From Thermococcus sp. (GTDB taxonomy: Archaea > Methanobacteriota_B > Thermococci > Thermococcales > Thermococcaceae), in the NCBI GenBank assembly GCA_027001105.1, contig JALTMZ010000195.1, positions 1 to 11,078 of the forward strand: a stretch of DNA of 11,078 bases, in the 5' to 3' direction. Within the stretch, counting starts at the first letter, position 1, and the number at the start of each line of letters is the position of its first letter. The position numbers were made by a program, and so were the translations under genes. Below are positions 1,413-9,474 of the stretch, piece after piece. The notes beneath the pieces were generated by a model, which saw nothing but the letters and a program-made list of their open reading frames with translations, was not told where the DNA came from and did not search any database.

Positions 1413-4211
1413 ATGAAGAGGTCTGGAATTTTGGCCTTGTTGTTTGTGTTTGTTATGCTTTTGGGACCATTAGCTGCAGCAGAGCAGGGGCCAGCTCCTG
1501 ACACTGTTTACATCTCAATTAGGACAAATGAAGAAACTGGTATAACAGACGTTGCAAAAGGAGACCTGGATATATTCCTCTGGTCAGTCAGTGGAGCTAA
1601 GTTCAAGGACTTACCAGCGGATGTTTTAAACAACTTAAAGCTCATCAAAACAGCAAGCGGTTATTGGGAAATCACCATGAACCCCGTCCATGACGATGAC
1701 AGCCCATACTTGATTACAGTCGGTGAGAAGAAGTATTTCAACCCATTTGCAATTAGAGAAGTTAGATTTGCAATGAACTGGCTCGTCAGCAGGCAGTACA
1801 TTGTTCAGAACATCCTCCAAGGTAGCGGTGCTCCAATGATTGGTGGTATCAGACCAAGCACAGGTGCAAACCCATACTTTGAGCCAGTTTATAAGGCTCT
1901 TGGAATCTCAGCTACAGCTGACGTTGCCAAGGCACAGAAAATGGTTGAGGAAGCTATGAAGAAAGCTGCCGATGAATTAGCAAAGCAGGGACACAAACTC
2001 GAGCTCAAGACCGATGAGAACGGAAGACAGTGGTGGTACTTTGATGGTGAGCCCGTTACAGTTAAGTTCATCATAAGAATTGAAGATAGAAGAAAAGATG
2101 AGGGTCTTTATGTTGCTGACTTAATTGAAAAGTTCTTCCACTTCAAGGTTGAGAGACTCCTCTGGGATAGGAGAAAGGCATCATCCACAGTTTACCTGAG
2201 CGATCCAAAGAACTACGAGTGGAACCTCTACACTGCTGGTTGGGTTTCAACGGTTAACGTTAAGTGGCCAGATGACTATACAGCCTTCTGGTATGCTGAC
2301 TGGTATGGATGGCTTCCAGCTCCAGTTGGATGGGAGTACAAGCCAACCCTCACAGTTAAGGACTTCATTGACTACATAGGAGGCCCAGACAAGGCTGTTG
2401 AGGCACTTGGTCTCAAGTACTATGTTGGAGACAAGCTCAAGGAGCTTTACGACTGGACAATTGATGATGTCACAAAGCTTCTCGTACTAACAAGCGTTGA
2501 GGTTAATGGTAAGGAGTACAAGCTTGAAGAAGGAAATGCTGACCAGTACTGGGATCTTCAGAAGATTTCAATGGGACTCGGTATAATGGACAGCATAAGA
2601 ATGTTCACAGTAGAAACTTGGGAGTACTTCCCAGTCAACAAGAACAGAGTTAAAGCAATTGCAAGAGATGTCTCAAGCGGTCTCTGGACAAGATGGAGCC
2701 TGATAACTGCTGAAACACCTGACAAGGTTGTTAACGTTGCTGAATACTCAGCAACCGGTGCACTCTTCATGAGCGCATTCAACCCAATTGGTGGTATCGA
2801 CGACGTTTATGCAAGTGCAATCTGGAGGGTTGTTAGAGACTACCCAGTTTACACAGATCTCTCAACCGGAACCTACATCCCAGTCAGATGTGATTTCAAG
2901 GTTGAGAGAGGGCCAATTAAGGTACCCGAAACAGCGGTCATCTGGAACGCAACTGTGAAGAAGTGGGTTTCACCATACGCTGGTCAGGAGGCTAAAGCCA
3001 AGGTTACCTACGACTGTAAGCTTGGCAACTGGCACGATGGACAGCCCATGACAATGGCAGACTTCAAGTACGCAATAGCATTCAACTATGAATGGGCTTA
3101 CAAGAATGGCGACAACGATCCATACTACGATGAGAAGATCGCAAACGCCTTCGTTGATATCGCCAAGCAGATAAAGGGTTATGAGTTCGTCGATGAGGAC
3201 ACAATTGCAGTCTATACAGACTACATCCACCCAATTGCTGATGATGTCATCGCTGCAAACAACGCTGTCTGGCCAACGCTCCCATGGCAGCTCCTCTATG
3301 CAATGAGCGAACTCGTTGCAAAGGGACAGGAGTATGGCGCATCACAGAAGTACTCCTTCAGTGAGGAGGCAGAGGGTGTTGCACAGCTTGACTTGCTCAT
3401 CAAAGATCACGTTGCAGACTTGAGGAAGGTTCTTGAGGCACTCAAGGCAAAGAAGGCAGTTCCACCTTCAATTGCCAACGATGTTAAAGACCCAACACCA
3501 GGTTACGACGCACTCATCAAGTGGATTGACGAGCATGGCAACGCTGTAGTCAGCAACGGTCCGTTCTACATTGAGAAGTACGACCCAGATAAGATATTCG
3601 TTGAGCTCAAGGCATTCAGAGACCCAACCTATCCGTTCAGCGTTGACTACTGGAAGCAGAAGCTCATCCTTGCAAAGCTTGAGCTCGCTGGTGTTAACAT
3701 TCCGACAAGGGTCTTCACAGGAGATGACTTGAAGATCGAGGTCAGAGCAAACATGGTTGTTGAGTATCCAACAGAGGGAACCCAGCCAGCTGACAAGGGA
3801 TTCGTTTACATTGAGATAAGAGATGAGAATGGTAATCCAGTCTACACCGGCGAGGCTAAACTCACTAAGGCAGGAGTCTTCGAGATAACTGTTCCTGGTT
3901 CAGAGACTGCAAAGTGGGAGGCAGGAAGATACGACATCTATGTCAAAGGCGGACTGATGGAGGGCGTTACCTCATTCACTGACAAGAAGACTCTGATTGT
4001 AATCAAGAAGCAGGTCACATCACCAAGCCCGAGCCCAAGCCCATCTCCAAGTCCGTCACCATCACCAAGCCCATCTCCATCACCAAGCCCATCACCAAGC
4101 CCGAGCCCAAGTCCCTCACCATCACCAACCGAGACTAAGACTGGTGTCTGTGGTCCAGCAGCACTTGTAGGACTGGCATTGATTCCACTGCTCCTGAGAA
4201 GGAAGAAGTGA
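1413..4211 (+). CDS. ABC transporter substrate-binding protein, Dpp/Opp class, CGP-CTERM anchored, motifs in permuted order
   Basis: This is the extracellular ligand receptor of the importer encoded downstream (family SBP_bac_5, 932 residues). Residues 1-23 are a signal peptide: MKRSG, a hydrophobic core, and LAAA before Glu24; no lipobox is seen. The binding region appears in swapped order. Residues 30-436 carry motifs normally found in the second half: the GDLDI aGeiD-like motif at 50-54, the FAIREVRFAMNWLVSR DvRvRqAl-like motif at 112-127, and NILQGSGAP at 133-141. Residues 437-760 carry first-half motifs: FNP at 456-458, WHDGQPMTMADF at 540-551 and NGPFYIEKY at 715-723. Residues 761-868 look beta-rich and Ig-like, 870-905 are 18 Ser-Pro units, and the end is CGPAAL (from Cys913), a hydrophobic segment and RRKK, matching CGP-CTERM. 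The ligand could be peptide or oligosaccharide; sequence alone does not decide. Class assignment is firm, the permutation is inferred. Confidence 0.93.
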   Translation: MKRSGILALLFVFVMLLGPLAAAEQGPAPDTVYISIRTNEETGITDVAKGDLDIFLWSVSGAKFKDLPADVLNNLKLIKTASGYWEITMNPVHDDDSPYLITVGEKKYFNPFAIREVRFAMNWLVSRQYIVQNILQGSGAPMIGGIRPSTGANPYFEPVYKALGISATADVAKAQKMVEEAMKKAADELAKQGHKLELKTDENGRQWWYFDGEPVTVKFIIRIEDRRKDEGLYVADLIEKFFHFKVERLLWDRRKASSTVYLSDPKNYEWNLYTAGWVSTVNVKWPDDYTAFWYADWYGWLPAPVGWEYKPTLTVKDFIDYIGGPDKAVEALGLKYYVGDKLKELYDWTIDDVTKLLVLTSVEVNGKEYKLEEGNADQYWDLQKISMGLGIMDSIRMFTVETWEYFPVNKNRVKAIARDVSSGLWTRWSLITAETPDKVVNVAEYSATGALFMSAFNPIGGIDDVYASAIWRVVRDYPVYTDLSTGTYIPVRCDFKVERGPIKVPETAVIWNATVKKWVSPYAGQEAKAKVTYDCKLGNWHDGQPMTMADFKYAIAFNYEWAYKNGDNDPYYDEKIANAFVDIAKQIKGYEFVDEDTIAVYTDYIHPIADDVIAANNAVWPTLPWQLLYAMSELVAKGQEYGASQKYSFSEEAEGVAQLDLLIKDHVADLRKVLEALKAKKAVPPSIANDVKDPTPGYDALIKWIDEHGNAVVSNGPFYIEKYDPDKIFVELKAFRDPTYPFSVDYWKQKLILAKLELAGVNIPTRVFTGDDLKIEVRANMVVEYPTEGTQPADKGFVYIEIRDENGNPVYTGEAKLTKAGVFEITVPGSETAKWEAGRYDIYVKGGLMEGVTSFTDKKTLIVIKKQVTSPSPSPSPSPSPSPSPSPSPSPSPSPSPSPSPSPSPTETKTGVCGPAALVGLALIPLLLRRKK
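4020..4127 (+). repeat. (Ser-Pro)18 stalk-coding tract
   Basis: Eighteen consecutive Ser-Pro codon pairs encode residues 870-905. Serine is written as TCA, AGC, TCT and AGT, and proline as CCA, CCG and CCC, so the tract is not a pure microsatellite, although 12-18 base blocks recur within it. The product should be an extended, possibly O-glycosylated spacer between the binding domains and the membrane anchor. Confidence 0.9.
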
Positions 4212-4443: not shown

Positions 4444-5505
4444 TTGGGATACGGTCGTTATTTGGCAATTAGACTCTTAAATGCGCTTTTAGTTCTGGCA
4501 TTAGTAACGCTACTTGTTTCAGTTCTGTTTACAAAAGTTGCAGAGGAGGACTTGAAGTCAAGCATACAGGAGCAGATAAATATGAAGCTAAGAGCAAATC
4601 CTGAACTTATGAAGCAGCTTTCAGCTGATCCTGAAAGGTTTCAGCAGTGGTATCAAAATGAGTACAACAGATTAATTCGTGCCTACGGGCTGGACAAGCC
4701 TTTCTGGGTTAGGGTCTTAGAGAGAACAAAGGACACTCTAACCCTAAACTTTGGGAATACGAAAACTCCAATATTCGGTGAGACTAACGTTAAGAAGATT
4801 ATCGCAGCCGCAATTCCAAGAACGGTTTTACTCTTCACGACGGCACAGATAATTGTTATTCTGATTGGCCTTCTCTTAGGTGTTAAAGCGGCTCAAGTTG
4901 CAGGAAGTGCATTGGACAGGGCAGTTTCTATTATCGCAATGCTAACGAGCAGTATACCAATGTGGTGGTTTGGAATGATTGCAATCTTAATCTTCTCGTT
5001 CAAACTTGGATGGTTCCCAAGTGGTGGCATGACATCCACTCCACCTAAGGAAGGATTTGCATACTACACTGACATCCTTTATCATATGGTACTCCCTGTG
5101 GGGACAATAGTGTTTGTCCTCTTCGGAGGTTGGGCATGGACAACCAGAAACATCATGATCGGCACAATGCAGGAAGACTTCATCATGGCTGCAAGGGCTA
5201 AAGGTGTTCCCGAAAGAAAAGTTATTTACGGACATGCTCTGAGAGCATCTGCTCCGCCGATCATCACAATGACGATCTTCAGCCTTCTCGGCTCTCTGGG
5301 TGGTGCAATCATTACAGAGGGAGTCTTCAACTGGCCGGGAATGGGAAGACTCTATTGGACTGCTCTACAACAAAACGAAACGAGACTTCTCATGGGAGTT
5401 ACATTCGTTACAGTTGCCCTTTATCTAATAAGCATGATACTTGCGGATTTGGCATATGGTTACCTTGATCCAAGAGTTAAAGTTGGTGCATCCCAGCAAA
5501 CATGA
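4444..5505 (+). CDS. ABC transporter permease, DppB/OppB family
   Basis: One half of the membrane channel of the importer, 353 residues, similar to the usual 310-350 of the family. Residues 7-30 form the first membrane helix, residues 31-115 are an extracytoplasmic loop with charged, probably helical sequence, and about five more helices follow. The cytoplasmic coupling (EAA) loop is at 243-273 (QEDFIMAARAKGV, then the HALRASAPPI segment), where an ATPase docks. EGVFNWPGMGRL further on is a typical DppB-family motif. The start is TTG, supported by a strong ribosome-binding site and an immediately preceding in-frame stop. Its stop codon at 5503 forms part of the ribosome-binding site of the next gene, so translation is probably coupled. 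Family assignment is firm; the transported substrate is not known. Confidence 0.95.
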   Translation: MGYGRYLAIRLLNALLVLALVTLLVSVLFTKVAEEDLKSSIQEQINMKLRANPELMKQLSADPERFQQWYQNEYNRLIRAYGLDKPFWVRVLERTKDTLTLNFGNTKTPIFGETNVKKIIAAAIPRTVLLFTTAQIIVILIGLLLGVKAAQVAGSALDRAVSIIAMLTSSIPMWWFGMIAILIFSFKLGWFPSGGMTSTPPKEGFAYYTDILYHMVLPVGTIVFVLFGGWAWTTRNIMIGTMQEDFIMAARAKGVPERKVIYGHALRASAPPIITMTIFSLLGSLGGAIITEGVFNWPGMGRLYWTALQQNETRLLMGVTFVTVALYLISMILADLAYGYLDPRVKVGASQQT

Positions 5506-5512
5506 GGTGAGG
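5504..5512 (+). promoter_or_regulatory. Stop-overlapping ribosome-binding site fixing the start at 5516
   Basis: GAGGTGAGG begins within the TGA stop of the upstream permease and lies 3 bases before ATG 5516. This argues against the longer frame from 5441, which would add 25 residues unlike the family and overlap the upstream gene by 65 bases. Confidence 0.7.
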
Positions 5513-5515
5513 CAA

Positions 5516-6958
5516 ATGAGATGGGTCGATGTAAAGGAGAGTATTAAGGATTTCTGGTTTGAATTTAGAAGGCAAAAAGGTGGGTTGCTTGGATTATTCT
5601 TACTTGCTCTCTTAGTTTTCACGGCCATAGCAGCCCCTTACATAACTGAACCAGACATTCCAAAGAAATGGACCACATACTGGGAGGGCAATCCTACAAA
5701 TGTTCCCCCAGTATGGTATAACTATTTCACTGCAAAAAAGCTTGCAGCTCACGAAGTTTTCACATACAACGACTTGAAGGTTACAGCCGAAGGACAGGAT
5801 TTGGGAGGAGGAATAAAATACTACGCTTTTGAATTTGACTACAATAATAGATACGATCTACCCCCAAAAGATTTGATCATAAAGAATATCGGAGTTCAGC
5901 TTGCTGATCTCAACACCCCAGCTCAGATCGTAATTACGGTTTACAGACCAGATGGGAAAAAGATCGAGCTTTTGAGTGCTGACTTGGTGGAGGGATCAAT
6001 ATACCAACTTGCCAAAATGGGTGCTGTTAGGAACAACGTGTTTAACTGGGCGTCGCAGTTTGAAGATCCAAAGAACCTTCAGGGTAGAGTTGAAACAATA
6101 AAAAGCACAATGGATGTCATGGAAGTCATATTTGCAAAAGCTGAACCTGGAATACTAATAAACCCACAGCCTCTCCACGGGGACTACAAGTTCCAAGTTG
6201 AGATATTCACGTTTAACAAGGGGGATAAAGTTGACTTAAAGCCTGTCCAAATCATCCTCACTGGAAGAACTTATGGGCTGATGGGAACGGATTACAAAGG
6301 AAGAGACCTTTGGGCAGGTTTAGTATGGGGAACAAGAGTTTCACTTGTCGTTGGTGTGTCAGTAGCGGTCTTGAGCGTTTTAATTGGAATTGCATACGGT
6401 GTCACGAGCGCATACCTTGGTGGCTGGAAGGACGAGTTTATGCAGAGAGTTAACGAATTTGTAGCCTCAATTCCAACGTTGCCGATCCTTATCCTTTTGG
6501 GTGCAGCATTCAAGGGACACGTTACATTGTGGACAATAGTCTTCCTGCTGGTGATGTTCGGATGGACTGGAATTGCCAAAGTTGCAAGGAGTATGGCACT
6601 CCAGATTAAAGAGCAGACCTATGTCGAGGCAGCAAAAGCTTTGGGTGCTGGAACTGGAAGGATTATATTCAAGCATATCATGCCGCAGATTATGCCTTAC
6701 GCATTTGCTGTCATGGCTCTGAGCGTTCCTGGAGCCGTTCTCACTGAAGCATCACTTAGCTTCCTTGGACTTGGTGATCCAACAGCGGTTACATGGGGAC
6801 AGATACTCTATGATGCCCAGACAAACAGTGCAACAATCAACGGGTATTGGTGGTGGGTCATTCCACCAGGATTGGCAATTTCATTAGTTGCATTGACATT
6901 CGTGCTTATTGGTGTGGCACTGGATAGAGTGTTGAACCCAAGACTCAGGAGATTGTGA
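5516..6958 (+). CDS. ABC transporter permease, DppC/OppC family, with large extracytoplasmic insertion
   Basis: Second half of the membrane channel, 480 residues against roughly 280-310 for typical DppC. Residues 23-43 are the first membrane helix (OppC_N-like). Residues about 45-255 form a polar region with alternating beta-type segments (for example IGVQLADL, QIVITVYRPDG, YKFQVEIFTF), facing the outside by topology. The conserved GTDYKGRDLW motif, normally soon after the first helix, is at 257-266, followed by TRVSLVVG and five helices. The coupling loop is at 366-392 (EQTYVEAAKALGAG) and the LTEASLSFLGLG family motif follows. The insertion does not break any core motif. It may contact the unusual binding protein; that is inference. 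The next gene follows after 10 bases. Confidence 0.95.
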   Translation: MRWVDVKESIKDFWFEFRRQKGGLLGLFLLALLVFTAIAAPYITEPDIPKKWTTYWEGNPTNVPPVWYNYFTAKKLAAHEVFTYNDLKVTAEGQDLGGGIKYYAFEFDYNNRYDLPPKDLIIKNIGVQLADLNTPAQIVITVYRPDGKKIELLSADLVEGSIYQLAKMGAVRNNVFNWASQFEDPKNLQGRVETIKSTMDVMEVIFAKAEPGILINPQPLHGDYKFQVEIFTFNKGDKVDLKPVQIILTGRTYGLMGTDYKGRDLWAGLVWGTRVSLVVGVSVAVLSVLIGIAYGVTSAYLGGWKDEFMQRVNEFVASIPTLPILILLGAAFKGHVTLWTIVFLLVMFGWTGIAKVARSMALQIKEQTYVEAAKALGAGTGRIIFKHIMPQIMPYAFAVMALSVPGAVLTEASLSFLGLGDPTAVTWGQILYDAQTNSATINGYWWWVIPPGLAISLVALTFVLIGVALDRVLNPRLRRL

Positions 6959-6962
6959 GGTG
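6957..6962 (+). promoter_or_regulatory. Stop-overlapping ribosome-binding site fixing the start at 6969
   Basis: GAGGTG overlaps the TGA stop of the DppC-like gene and ends 6 bases before ATG 6969. A GTG three codons upstream (6960) lies inside this site and is therefore unlikely to be the start. Confidence 0.7.
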
Positions 6963-6968
6963 TGGAAG

Positions 6969-7928
6969 ATGGCTAAGACTGTCCTTGAAGTTAAAGATCT
7001 CAAAATGTACTACTTCACATCCAGAGGTGTCGTCAAAGCAGTCGACAATGTCAGCTTTGAGCTCAAAAAGGGGGAAGTATTGGGACTCGCTGGGGAGAGT
7101 GGATGTGGCAAGTCCTCTCTTGGCTTTACTTTAATGGGAATGCCAACTCCTCCAGGAAAGATAGTCGGTGGTAGCGTTAAAATTGACGGCAGAGAAATAG
7201 TTGGCCTTCCAGAGGACGTTTTGAGGAGAGAGATAAGGTGGCAGAAGATCTCAATGATATTCCAGGGTGCAATGAATGCTTTGAATCCTGTTTATACAAT
7301 TGGCTATCAGATGATTGAACCTCTCATTTATCACAAAGGAATGGAAAAAGAAGAAGCCCTTGACAGAGCAATGAAATATCTTGAGTTAGTTGGCCTGTCG
7401 CCAGAGATTGTTTACAGATACCCCCATGAGCTGAGCGGTGGTATGAAGCAGAGAGTTATCATTGCAACAGCGTTAATCCTTGAGCCAGAGGTTGTTATTG
7501 CCGATGAGCCAACAACAGCTCTTGATGTCGTTGTTCAGGCACAGATCATCAATTTGATGAAGAAGCTTAAGAAGGAGCTTGGACTTTCAATGATATTCAT
7601 CACACACGACCTGAGCATTCTTGCAGAGATCAGCGACAGAGTAGCAATCATGTATGCTGGAAAGATAATCGAGATCGGTGACAGCCAGAAGATTTACTAT
7701 GAGCCAGCCCATCCGTATACTCAAAAGTTGCTTGCAGCAATCCCGAGATTGCATGAGGACGTTGATAAGCTTGAATTTATTCCAGGACAACCGCCGAACC
7801 TCATTAAGCCCCCAAGTGGCTGCAGATTCCATCCAAGATGTCCCTATGCGATGCAGATATGTAAAGAACAAGAACCAGAGCTAAAGGAGATTGATAAAGA
7901 TCACTATGCAGCATGCTGGCTGTTGTGA
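6969..7928 (+). CDS. ABC transporter ATP-binding protein, DppD/OppD family
   Basis: One of the two cytoplasmic ATPases that drive the importer, 319 residues, normal length for the family. Motifs in order are Walker A GESGCGKS (42-49), the Q-loop in MIFQGAMNALNP, signature LSGGMKQR (155-162), Walker B VVIADEP (175-181) with D-loop TALD, and the switch histidine in FITHD. The C-terminal oligo_HPY region has GCRFHPRCPY and four cysteines (285, 291, 298, 316), a spacing common in Dpp/Opp ATPases and compatible with metal or Fe-S binding. The start at ATG 6969 is set by GAGGTG 6 bases upstream. The gene is complete, lies 10 bases after the permease gene and shares its transcript. It should form a heterodimer with the next gene product. 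Confidence 0.95.
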   Translation: MAKTVLEVKDLKMYYFTSRGVVKAVDNVSFELKKGEVLGLAGESGCGKSSLGFTLMGMPTPPGKIVGGSVKIDGREIVGLPEDVLRREIRWQKISMIFQGAMNALNPVYTIGYQMIEPLIYHKGMEKEEALDRAMKYLELVGLSPEIVYRYPHELSGGMKQRVIIATALILEPEVVIADEPTTALDVVVQAQIINLMKKLKKELGLSMIFITHDLSILAEISDRVAIMYAGKIIEIGDSQKIYYEPAHPYTQKLLAAIPRLHEDVDKLEFIPGQPPNLIKPPSGCRFHPRCPYAMQICKEQEPELKEIDKDHYAACWLL

Positions 7929-7938
7929 GGGATGAAAG

Positions 7939-8946
7939 ATGGCCGAGCCAATTTTGAAAGTTGAAAACCTCAAGAAGTACTTCCCGATCAAAAGAGGGTT
8001 ACTTGGAGCCCTTAGAGGGGAACCTCCAAGATTCGTTAGAGCTGTTGATGGAGTCAGCTTTGAAGTGTACAAGCAAGAGGTCTTTGCCTTAGTAGGTGAG
8101 AGTGGCTGTGGTAAGACAACAACAGGAAAGCTCGTCATGAAGCTCCTCGAGCCTACGGATGGTAGGATATATCTGGAAGGAAAAGATGTTACTGAGCTCA
8201 AAACGCAAGAGGAAATTAAGGCATACAGAAGAAAGGTTCAGATGATATTCCAGGATCCTTTCTCATCAATGAATCCAAGATTCAGGATATATGACGTGCT
8301 CGAAGAACCTCTCTTAATTCACGGAATAGGCGAAACAAGGGCGGAAAGGGAAGAACTTATATACAAAGCCCTGGAAATGGTCAAGATTGTTCCACCGGAG
8401 GACTATGTTGGAAGACATCCGCATATGCTTTCAGGCGGTCAGAGACAAAGAGTTGCTATTGCAAGAGCACTCATCTTGAATCCAACATTTATTGTTGCAG
8501 ATGAGCCCGTTTCAATGCTTGATGTTTCAATTAGAGCAGAAATCCTTGAATTGATGAAGGAGCTTAAAGAAAAGATGGGCGTTACATATCTCTACATCAC
8601 CCACGACCTCTCAACGGCAAGGTACTTCTCAGACTGGATAGCTGTTATGTATCTGGGAAGAATAGTTGAGATGGGGCCCGCTAAAGTCGTAATTGACAAT
8701 CCAATACATCCATATACAAGAGCTCTCTTGGCTGCTGTTCCAGAGCCAATTCCAGAGAGAAGAAACATCATCAAAGAATTGCCAATTAAAGGTGAAGTTC
8801 CAAGTGCTGTCAACATTCCACCAGGATGTAGATTTCATCCCAGATGTGTCTACATGGAGAAAGGACTCTGTGATGTCAAGCATCCACAGCTCATTGAATA
8901 CGAACACAACCATTGGGTTGAGTGTCATTTAGCAGGTAAGATCTGA
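7939..8946 (+). CDS. ABC transporter ATP-binding protein, DppF/OppF family
   Basis: Partner ATPase, 335 residues, full length. KYFPIKRGLLG near the N-terminus is typical of the DppF/OppF branch. Walker A is GESGCGKT (53-60), the Q-loop is in MIFQDPFSSMNPR, the signature is LSGGQRQR (164-171), Walker B is FIVADEP (184-190) and the switch histidine is in YITHD. The D-loop region reads PVSMLD instead of the common PTSALD, a variant I do not expect to abolish activity. The C-terminal oligo_HPY region carries GCRFHPRCVY and four cysteines (297, 303, 311, 329), parallel to its partner. The ATG at 7939 follows GAGGGATG, which overlaps the previous stop. This is the last gene of the importer; a 39-base gap with T-rich sequence follows. 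Confidence 0.95.
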   Translation: MAEPILKVENLKKYFPIKRGLLGALRGEPPRFVRAVDGVSFEVYKQEVFALVGESGCGKTTTGKLVMKLLEPTDGRIYLEGKDVTELKTQEEIKAYRRKVQMIFQDPFSSMNPRFRIYDVLEEPLLIHGIGETRAEREELIYKALEMVKIVPPEDYVGRHPHMLSGGQRQRVAIARALILNPTFIVADEPVSMLDVSIRAEILELMKELKEKMGVTYLYITHDLSTARYFSDWIAVMYLGRIVEMGPAKVVIDNPIHPYTRALLAAVPEPIPERRNIIKELPIKGEVPSAVNIPPGCRFHPRCVYMEKGLCDVKHPQLIEYEHNHWVECHLAGKI

Positions 8947-8985: not shown

Positions 8986-9474
8986 ATGACTACATTCAGA
9001 AGAGCCATTAATTATCCGCTGATAAAGGGAGGATTAATTTTTTTAGCACTTGCTCTTCTACTATCCTTAATATCAATGTATAGCGTTGAAAAATCCTATT
9101 TTTCCCAAGGAACCTTAGGTGTTGGGCATCACATTATTGGAGACAAAGAGTTCGAAAGCAACTATTTCGTAATAAATAGAACTCTTATCATTTCCTCCCA
9201 AAATGCAAGTGTCGTTGTTATTCAGAGGGGGAAGATAAACTCTTACACTCTCAACAATCAATCTGTTCGTCTAACCCCAACTTCCCAACCTGAAATAAGT
9301 GTCGAGAGTGGTAATGTGAGCTATTCGTATAGAGTTTACGGCGTTGATTACCCCTACTCCCCCTTATCACTCTTGGCTTTTGTTTTTATGATTGTAGGAA
9401 GTGCTTTAAGTGTGTATGGATATATTAGATTTATGGAAGGTGCTGTTGAAAAAACACGGAAGAGAAGAAGGTGA
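8986..9474 (+). CDS. Hypothetical membrane protein with two TM segments
   Basis: I do not recognise this 162-residue protein. It has a short basic N-terminus, a hydrophobic segment at about 14-31, an extracytoplasmic region of about 90 residues rich in Ser, Asn, Val and Tyr with four potential N-glycosylation sequons (NRT, NAS, NQS, NVS), a second membrane helix at about 122-147 and a very basic tail ending KTRKRRR, which should be cytoplasmic. Both termini would be inside and a small beta-type domain outside. The start ATG is preceded by GGATGTGAT. Its TGA stop is embedded in the ribosome-binding site of nadE, so the two genes are probably translated together. A role in the importer is possible only by position. 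Confidence 0.8.

Follow-up and report, generated by a model that had tools for sequence, protein, structure and literature searches.

A circularly permuted class-C binding protein of Thermococcus and the several chain orders of its family

The SBP_bac_5 superfamily of class-C substrate-binding proteins (SBPs) has, as a whole, a canonical order of its two chain halves. A stretch of 11,078 nucleotides (nt) from Thermococcus sp. (assembly GCA_027001105.1, contig JALTMZ010000195.1, hereafter the window) encodes a 932-residue relative whose motifs, according to a sequence-only reading, follow one another in a circularly permuted order. This raises the question of whether the chain has genuinely been re-opened at a new place and, if so, whether this happened once or repeatedly in the family. 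The analysis presented here assigns a probability of roughly 0.88 to the reading that the window protein is the tethered binding protein of a Dpp/Opp-type ATP-binding cassette (ABC) importer and a true natural circular permutant of the class-C fold, from a family whose core has been opened at five places.

Comparison with PF00496 (SBP_bac_5) gives the window protein 55.1 bits summed over two stretches (cut-off 32.4; whole-protein E 8.6e-15). Profile positions 146-349 align with amino acids (aa) 27-280, ahead of positions 28-152, which align with aa 539-757 (nt 3027-3683; by itself this stretch is under the Pfam cut-off), the reverse of the canonical order. The same arrangement emerges against the solved structure 7fi3, the OppA of Thermococcus kodakarensis in the usual order (E 1.1e-137): its residues 324-721 correspond to window aa 31-433 and its residues 4-310 to aa 437-742, with identities of 40% and 35%, respectively. 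Each half is present once, and the two together make up one full turn of the core (aa 28-745). Since the halves match different regions of the profile and of 7fi3, tandem duplication of one half is ruled out. Further, residues 30-436 match the second, not the first, half of the profile by Pfam, 7fi3, superposition and hhalign alike, while the stretch carrying WHDG at 540 matches the N-terminal part of both 7fi3 and Pfam and is homologous to the usual motif. The order of the halves is not due to chance, and the swap is confirmed.

In structural terms, an AlphaFold model of the window protein (predicted local distance difference test (pLDDT) 89, predicted template modelling score (pTM) 0.83) displays the bilobed class-C fold. 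Superposition with VIA-align, the rows of which cover mainly aa 22-438, matches aa 22-437 to the C-terminal half of both DppA and OppA, and for these residues the fold of the unpermuted relatives is predicted. The structure and PDB rows listed for the protein are class-C-type entries, although such a list cannot exclude a type I sugar-binding fold; a PDB sequence search with profiles at E 0.001 returned only 7fi3 and a weak match to AgaA. Both ends of the core adjoin loops of the model, one between strand 729-734 and helix 746-750 and the other at the start of strand 31-37. Much of the sequence-only reading is borne out by these comparisons: the permutation of the SBP_bac_5 fold itself, all seven motifs at exactly the residues given for them (FNP occurs again at 109-111), and the joining of the usual termini near residue 437, which the 7fi3 alignment places at aa 433-437. 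The new N-terminus, which had been set at the crossing from lobe I to lobe II, in fact lies upstream of it, the first pair aligned with DppA being aa 20 and residue 202. Taking lobe limits of DppA that we presume, the crossing strand of the window protein is predicted to be aa 75-89, a long strand in the model.

The breaks of related chains were mapped by doubling the core alignment of the window-type order (P1) head-to-tail and searching relatives with it, such that intact single-core proteins align over one full turn and their starting point marks the break; BLASTP against a single core or the window protein recovers the same orders. In window residue numbers, the breaks lie at 745/31 for P1, ~434 for the canonical order (N), ~678-691 for P3, ~324-335 for P4 and ~209 for P5. 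There are thus four further chain breaks among the relatives, the canonical one included, a diversity that the sequence-only reading understated. In intact single-core relatives each half likewise occurs once, in one complete turn, and a seam, wherever it is measurable, is open only in the order class that it defines. At the N seam, 14-25 residues separate anchors 425 and 442 in 268 of 268 P1, P3, P4 and P5 rows. The P1 seam is closed by 20-37 residues in N, 26-39 in P3, 26-28 in P4 and 44-51 in P5, meaning that P5 has a short linker inserted there; four P1 rows seemingly closed at this seam reflect the alignment wrapping at an end. Of 226 P1 rows, 103 allow the P4 seam to be measured; no P5 row, of 6, does. 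On the window model, the breaks coincide with loops or adjoin them, with the P1, N and P3 ends apparently in lobe I and those of P4 and P5 in lobe II.

The phyletic spread of these orders is uneven. Matches are found in 89 of 94 Thermococcaceae genomes, and the permutation, suggested to be possibly shared by a whole Thermococcales subfamily, ranges more widely, with P1 in bacteria and many archaeal groups. The best 80 of at least 537 confirmed relatives from a scan of genome contigs, a ranking against a P1 protein that favors P1, comprise 77 P1 proteins, one P3 (L136, Baldrarchaeota), one cut by a contig end and consistent with P1 (L162), and one split over two frames (L167). Their named hosts, nearly all metagenome-assembled genomes (MAGs), include Thermoproteota, Thaumarchaeota, Desulfurococcales, Baldrarchaeota, Thermotogota and Atribacterota, along with Halanaerobiales, Spirochaetes, Planctomycetota and Bipolaricaulota. 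Full-length N-order proteins that carry an organism name are all from Thermococcaceae; several carry none, and a 548-aa N-order piece from a MAG labelled Chloroflexi (P0140) is 54% identical to a P. furiosus protein. P5 is represented by only 6 database proteins among 120 matches listed of 269. Two binding-protein genes lie in two adjacent open frames each (G021:C1:994875-996820 and G077:C1:1227671-1229534), being either frameshifted or naturally split, and the relative P0053 is labelled 'permease'.

The window gene heads a complete operon with partners of the DppBCDF/OppBCDF type, in the layout SBP-PermB-PermC-ATPase-ATPase (Table 1). Within Thermococcaceae the same layout accompanies four orders, namely N (L085-L090), P1 (L094-L096, L100, L102), P3 (L083, L092, L093) and P4 (L075, L076, L080, L081), and a single genus (g3) has N, P3 and P4 beside it; P1 accompanies this layout outside Thermococcaceae as well, in one genome from a different family within the class (L097). 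Thirteen other regions contain a core, complete or partial, without the partner genes (L065, L067, L068, L071-L074, L077-L079, L082, L084, L091), a few further regions being too short to judge.

For 160 representatives, 155 of which could be assigned an order, parsimony on a FastTree requires 8 order changes, against a mean of 28.4 and a minimum of 26 in 200 shuffles, and P1 occupies the midpoint root. In a 59-row clade tree, approximately unbiased (AU) tests reject both a single clade of the 6 P4 and 2 partial P4-like rows (p 4e-5) and a P3+P4 group freed of the P1 rows nested in it (p 8.8e-5). These p values, like those of the AU tests below, are optimistic, as the groups were chosen after the first FastTrees. 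Trees of the separate halves, both rooted on P1 relatives, agree on the main pattern and nest N among P1 rows, with some P1, P3 and P4 branches shifting. A rooted permease-ATPase tree places N, including the canonical OppA, inside the Thermococcaceae P1 proteins and rejects N being set apart with the outgroup (AU p 0.0006). P1 appears to be ancestral in the family, and a return of the T. kodakarensis OppA (TkOppA) lineage to the canonical order, i.e., a reversion, is favored, though not proven. Groups that are separate in the trees share the position of the P4 seam; this may reflect gene conversion, or a single origin followed by later changes, and the count of events therefore depends on the trees.

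A comparable situation is encountered in a second, separate class-C family, that of a 725-aa lipoprotein from the same organisms. In L212 the canonical C-terminal tail precedes the canonical N-terminus, giving a P4-like cut (pairwise BLASTP E 4e-4 and 7e-5; hhalign E 6.9e-7, probability 91.9%). A canonical assignment of L211/L212, suggested by their one collinear Pfam stretch, is ruled out by this identity of the N-terminal region. All three sampled genomes of genus g5 (G010, G014, G018) have a version cut at the P1-equivalent place, about 80-84% identical to L212, with the loci L215:4978-7239, L216:5404-7560 and L217:3966-6158 ~82% identical to it despite their different order. Among 120 listed of 538 relatives, 97 are collinear with L212, 19 (Pyrobaculum among them) have the P1-like cut, 2 are cut ~50 residues further on (P0187, P0188) and 2 are fragments; the cuts are equated with the P1 and P4 seams by surrounding motifs rather than by structural alignment. 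Judging from sequence, permutation in this family would be independent. Some of its members are labelled 'DNA-binding protein'.

Taken together, we consider it rather probable that the archaeal class-C binding proteins form a permutation series, with openings at five loops, reused seams, nested re-permutations, a revertant in TkOppA and two equivalent seams in the second family, all beside the same kind of partner transporter. A number of observations weigh against the main reading, that of the window protein as a permutant from a family opened at five places. The model of a P4 protein is uninformative (mean pLDDT 35.4, 8 sequences), and generic Thermococcaceae SBPs match the second half of the window protein weakly (hhalign E 0.0086, probability 4.7%), so that the identity of this half rests mainly on 7fi3. 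The ranking of the best 80 relatives favors P1 and the AU groups were chosen after a first look at the trees, as noted above; two P1 rows (P0142, L071) fall inside N in the 59-row tree with support 70; the permease tree has one outgroup operon on a long branch; and the SBP and permease trees differ on the position of P3/P4 relative to N. A direct head-to-tail (partial) duplicate, as an intermediate, was not seen in the turn lengths of the relatives. Finally, when 13 generic SBPs serve as outgroups, the SBP tree has its root inside P1 without rejecting a root next to N (p-AU 0.22), and it again roots inside P1 (p 0.083) with the 11 outgroups left after removal of L212 and L220, which are themselves permuted. 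The failure to reject a root next to N and the canonical order of the superfamily speak for an alternative history in which a single early cut gave rise to all P1 proteins, Thermococcaceae OppA kept the N order without any reversion, and P3, P4 and P5 are later re-cuts. This history is nevertheless doubtful on account of the restriction of named full-length N proteins to Thermococcaceae while P1 extends across many archaeal and bacterial groups, its rejection by the permease tree, and the nesting of N among P1 in both half trees, P1-rooted as these are.

Other alternatives concern the reality and the cause of the permutation. The protein might derive from a fusion of two binding proteins, the leading one having lost its N-terminal half and the trailing one its C-terminal half, with the remainders not forming a single domain. 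Tandem core fusions do exist: the 2077-aa chain of L065:2403-8636 (G027:C1) contains the complete P1 core twice (aa 52-761 and 896-1609), and L066 has one turn plus a half, cut by a contig end. However, the single occurrence of each half in one complete turn, in the window protein and in its intact single-core relatives, the one confident model and the retention of the order across phyla render such a fusion highly improbable. Likewise, the window assembly is fragmented and 80% complete, which could invite the suspicion of an assembly or gene-calling error, but the open reading frame (ORF) is intact and 99% identical in G003 and G006, assembled in one and two contigs, and the swapped order is therefore no assembly artefact; with full-length collinear homologues in one-contig genomes (e.g., G005, G011, G019, G025), this explanation can be regarded as refuted. 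As for the cause, the permutation could be adaptive in that the moved ends relocate the membrane attachment to a different side of the protein. The authors of the Treponema pallidum MglB-2 study raise tethering as a role of its permutation in the part of that report available to us (PMC4990184), and many archaeal members here end in anchor-like tails, as judged by crude tail patterns and the CGP-CTERM and PGF-CTERM models. Such an explanation is unlikely in view of the family's five exit sites, of which four accompany a single type of operon, and of the lack of an anchor-like tail in P1 proteins from two bacterial MAGs (L121, L151).

In the main reading, the window protein would be extracellular, tethered at its C-terminus by a long linker and an anchor, and would serve the importer encoded downstream. 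Its usual ends are fused near residue 435, and the new ends lie, apparently in lobe I, after NGPFYIEKY and the YPF-DYW region and before the GDLDI segment. Ligand would be handed over to permeases B and C in Venus-flytrap fashion; by analogy, it is probably a peptide, as the title of the 7fi3 entry names a bound pentapeptide. The permutation may have arisen by tandem duplication followed by trimming, one general model of permutation according to the accessible part of PMC3320104. The two cores of L065 are separated by a 134-residue spacer, and L065 does not therefore prove this route. As a long flexible linker holds the chain, its exit site from the fold may matter little and the orders may be interchangeable; the coexistence of five exit sites, four beside one operon type, would accordingly point to weak selection on the position of the ends.

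Table 1. Features of the window, with the evidence for each; permease starts are mechanical.
Feature	Position (nt)	Strand	Evidence
Permuted class-C (SBP_bac_5) substrate-binding protein, order P1, 932 aa	1413..4211	+	intact open frame; PF00496; 7fi3 match
Putative signal peptide, aa 1-24	1413..1484	+	hydrophobic N-terminal segment read from sequence; model helix 4-17
Canonical C-terminal half placed first (lobe II and last part of lobe I), aa 28-433	1494..2711	+	
Seam, canonical C-terminus joined to canonical N-terminus, aa 433-437	2709..2723	+	7fi3 alignment; anchor spacing
Canonical N-terminal half placed second (first part of lobe I), aa 436-745	2718..3647	+	7fi3 4-310, i-E 3.5e-50; Pfam 28-152
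Beta-rich Ig-like domain, aa 752-864	3666..4004	+	FlgD_ig E 4.5e-4, below Pfam cut-off; model strands
Ser-Pro repeat linker, aa 868-911	4014..4145	+	read from sequence; pLDDT mostly <50
CGP-CTERM sorting/anchor segment, aa 912-931	4146..4205	+	TIGR04288, 28.6 bits, cut-off 21
Permease B (DppB/OppB type)	4444..5505	+	BPD_transp_1 122 bits; mechanical start codon
Permease C (DppC/OppC type)	5441..6958	+	OppC_N 36-90, BPD_transp_1 316-504; mechanical start codon
ATPase D (DppD/OppD type)	6960..7928	+	ABC_tran + oligo_HPY
ATPase F (DppF/OppF type)	7939..8946	+	ABC_tran + oligo_HPY

In the window permease C, a long insert separates the N-terminal helix region from the permease domain. In 61 collected operons this permease measures 422-649 aa (class medians 471-496; mechanical starts) as against 313 aa in two outgroup operons, and the insert could possibly be a docking domain. 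Between the transporter and an NAD synthase gene, the window also contains a 162-aa ORF (8986-9474) that has hydrophobic stretches and matches no Pfam family at E 0.001.

Several relatives are embedded in larger architectures. In L067:5294-9100 (G085:C1), nested in the P3 clade, a P1-order binding domain is fused through a transmembrane-like segment, read from the sequence, to a Pkinase domain (E 2.4e-44), which makes it a possible receptor kinase of an archaeon, sensing through a permuted binding protein. L071:5441-14068 (G070:C1), of 2875 aa, combines beta-helix/NosD repeats with a P1 core and Ig/fn3 domains, and partial matches to the core also occur in further very long ORFs, among them L072 and L073 (genomes G004 and G029). 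A shared C-terminal domain of ~210 aa, with no obvious membrane anchor, is found in the P4 or P4-like L077, L078, L082 (aa about 745-955), P0053 and L079; the loci of L077, L078, L082 and L079 are without the operon, and L077 has a weak S_layer_C match (E 3.8e-4).

Among known systems, T. kodakarensis OppA (7fi3) is a class-C peptide-binding protein of the same family, in canonical order where the window halves are swapped. DppA, OppA and NikA share PF00496, for which the window protein scores above the cut-off, and half of its model superposes on DppA/OppA; it differs in its permuted order and in a core of ~715 aa as compared with chains of roughly 500 aa in DppA/OppA. The entries 2B4L and 1R9L we take to be OpuAC and ProX. 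Glycine betaine-binding proteins and their relatives (OpuAC, ProX) are also related by circular permutation according to the accessible passages of PMC2395249, in which the betaine and molybdate binders have <24% identity and are not class C. The available part of PMC4990184 describes T. pallidum MglB-2 (Tp0684, 'Type Ic/Cluster Bc') as likewise a natural permutant of a tethered ABC binding protein, with one permutation of a Type I/cluster B sugar-binding fold rather than the class C of the window protein. Permuted binding proteins of other fold classes are hence known (PMC4990184, PMC2395249, as far as their accessible parts go). DNA methyltransferases, enzymes of unrelated fold, occur in permutation classes with documented duplication intermediates (PMC3320104, in part). 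OppA is named the major membrane and vesicle protein of Thermococcus in a passage of PMC10117752, the circularly permuted 23S rRNA of P. furiosus is the subject of PMC7758197, and the passage available from PMC12667903 contains nothing on ABC transporters. Among the open-licence papers listed, some from listings cut short, and covered as titles, abstract beginnings and some passages, with subscription papers outside the scope, no account was found of permuted class-C binding proteins, of several orders in one binding-protein family or of reversion.

The published natural binding-protein permutants found, as far as the available passages go, are isolated, distant pairs (PMC4990184, PMC2395249), whereas here three orders occur in one genus and proteins of two different orders in a second family share about 82% identity. 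The system allows direct questions about how permutations arise, whether they are undone and what they cost, and its varied exit sites amount to a natural experiment on whether it matters where a binding protein is anchored. It also bears on annotation, as the Pfam match of the window protein is broken into two stretches and some relatives bear unrelated names. If the permutation series is true, the ends of the class-C fold would be nearly free to move in evolution.
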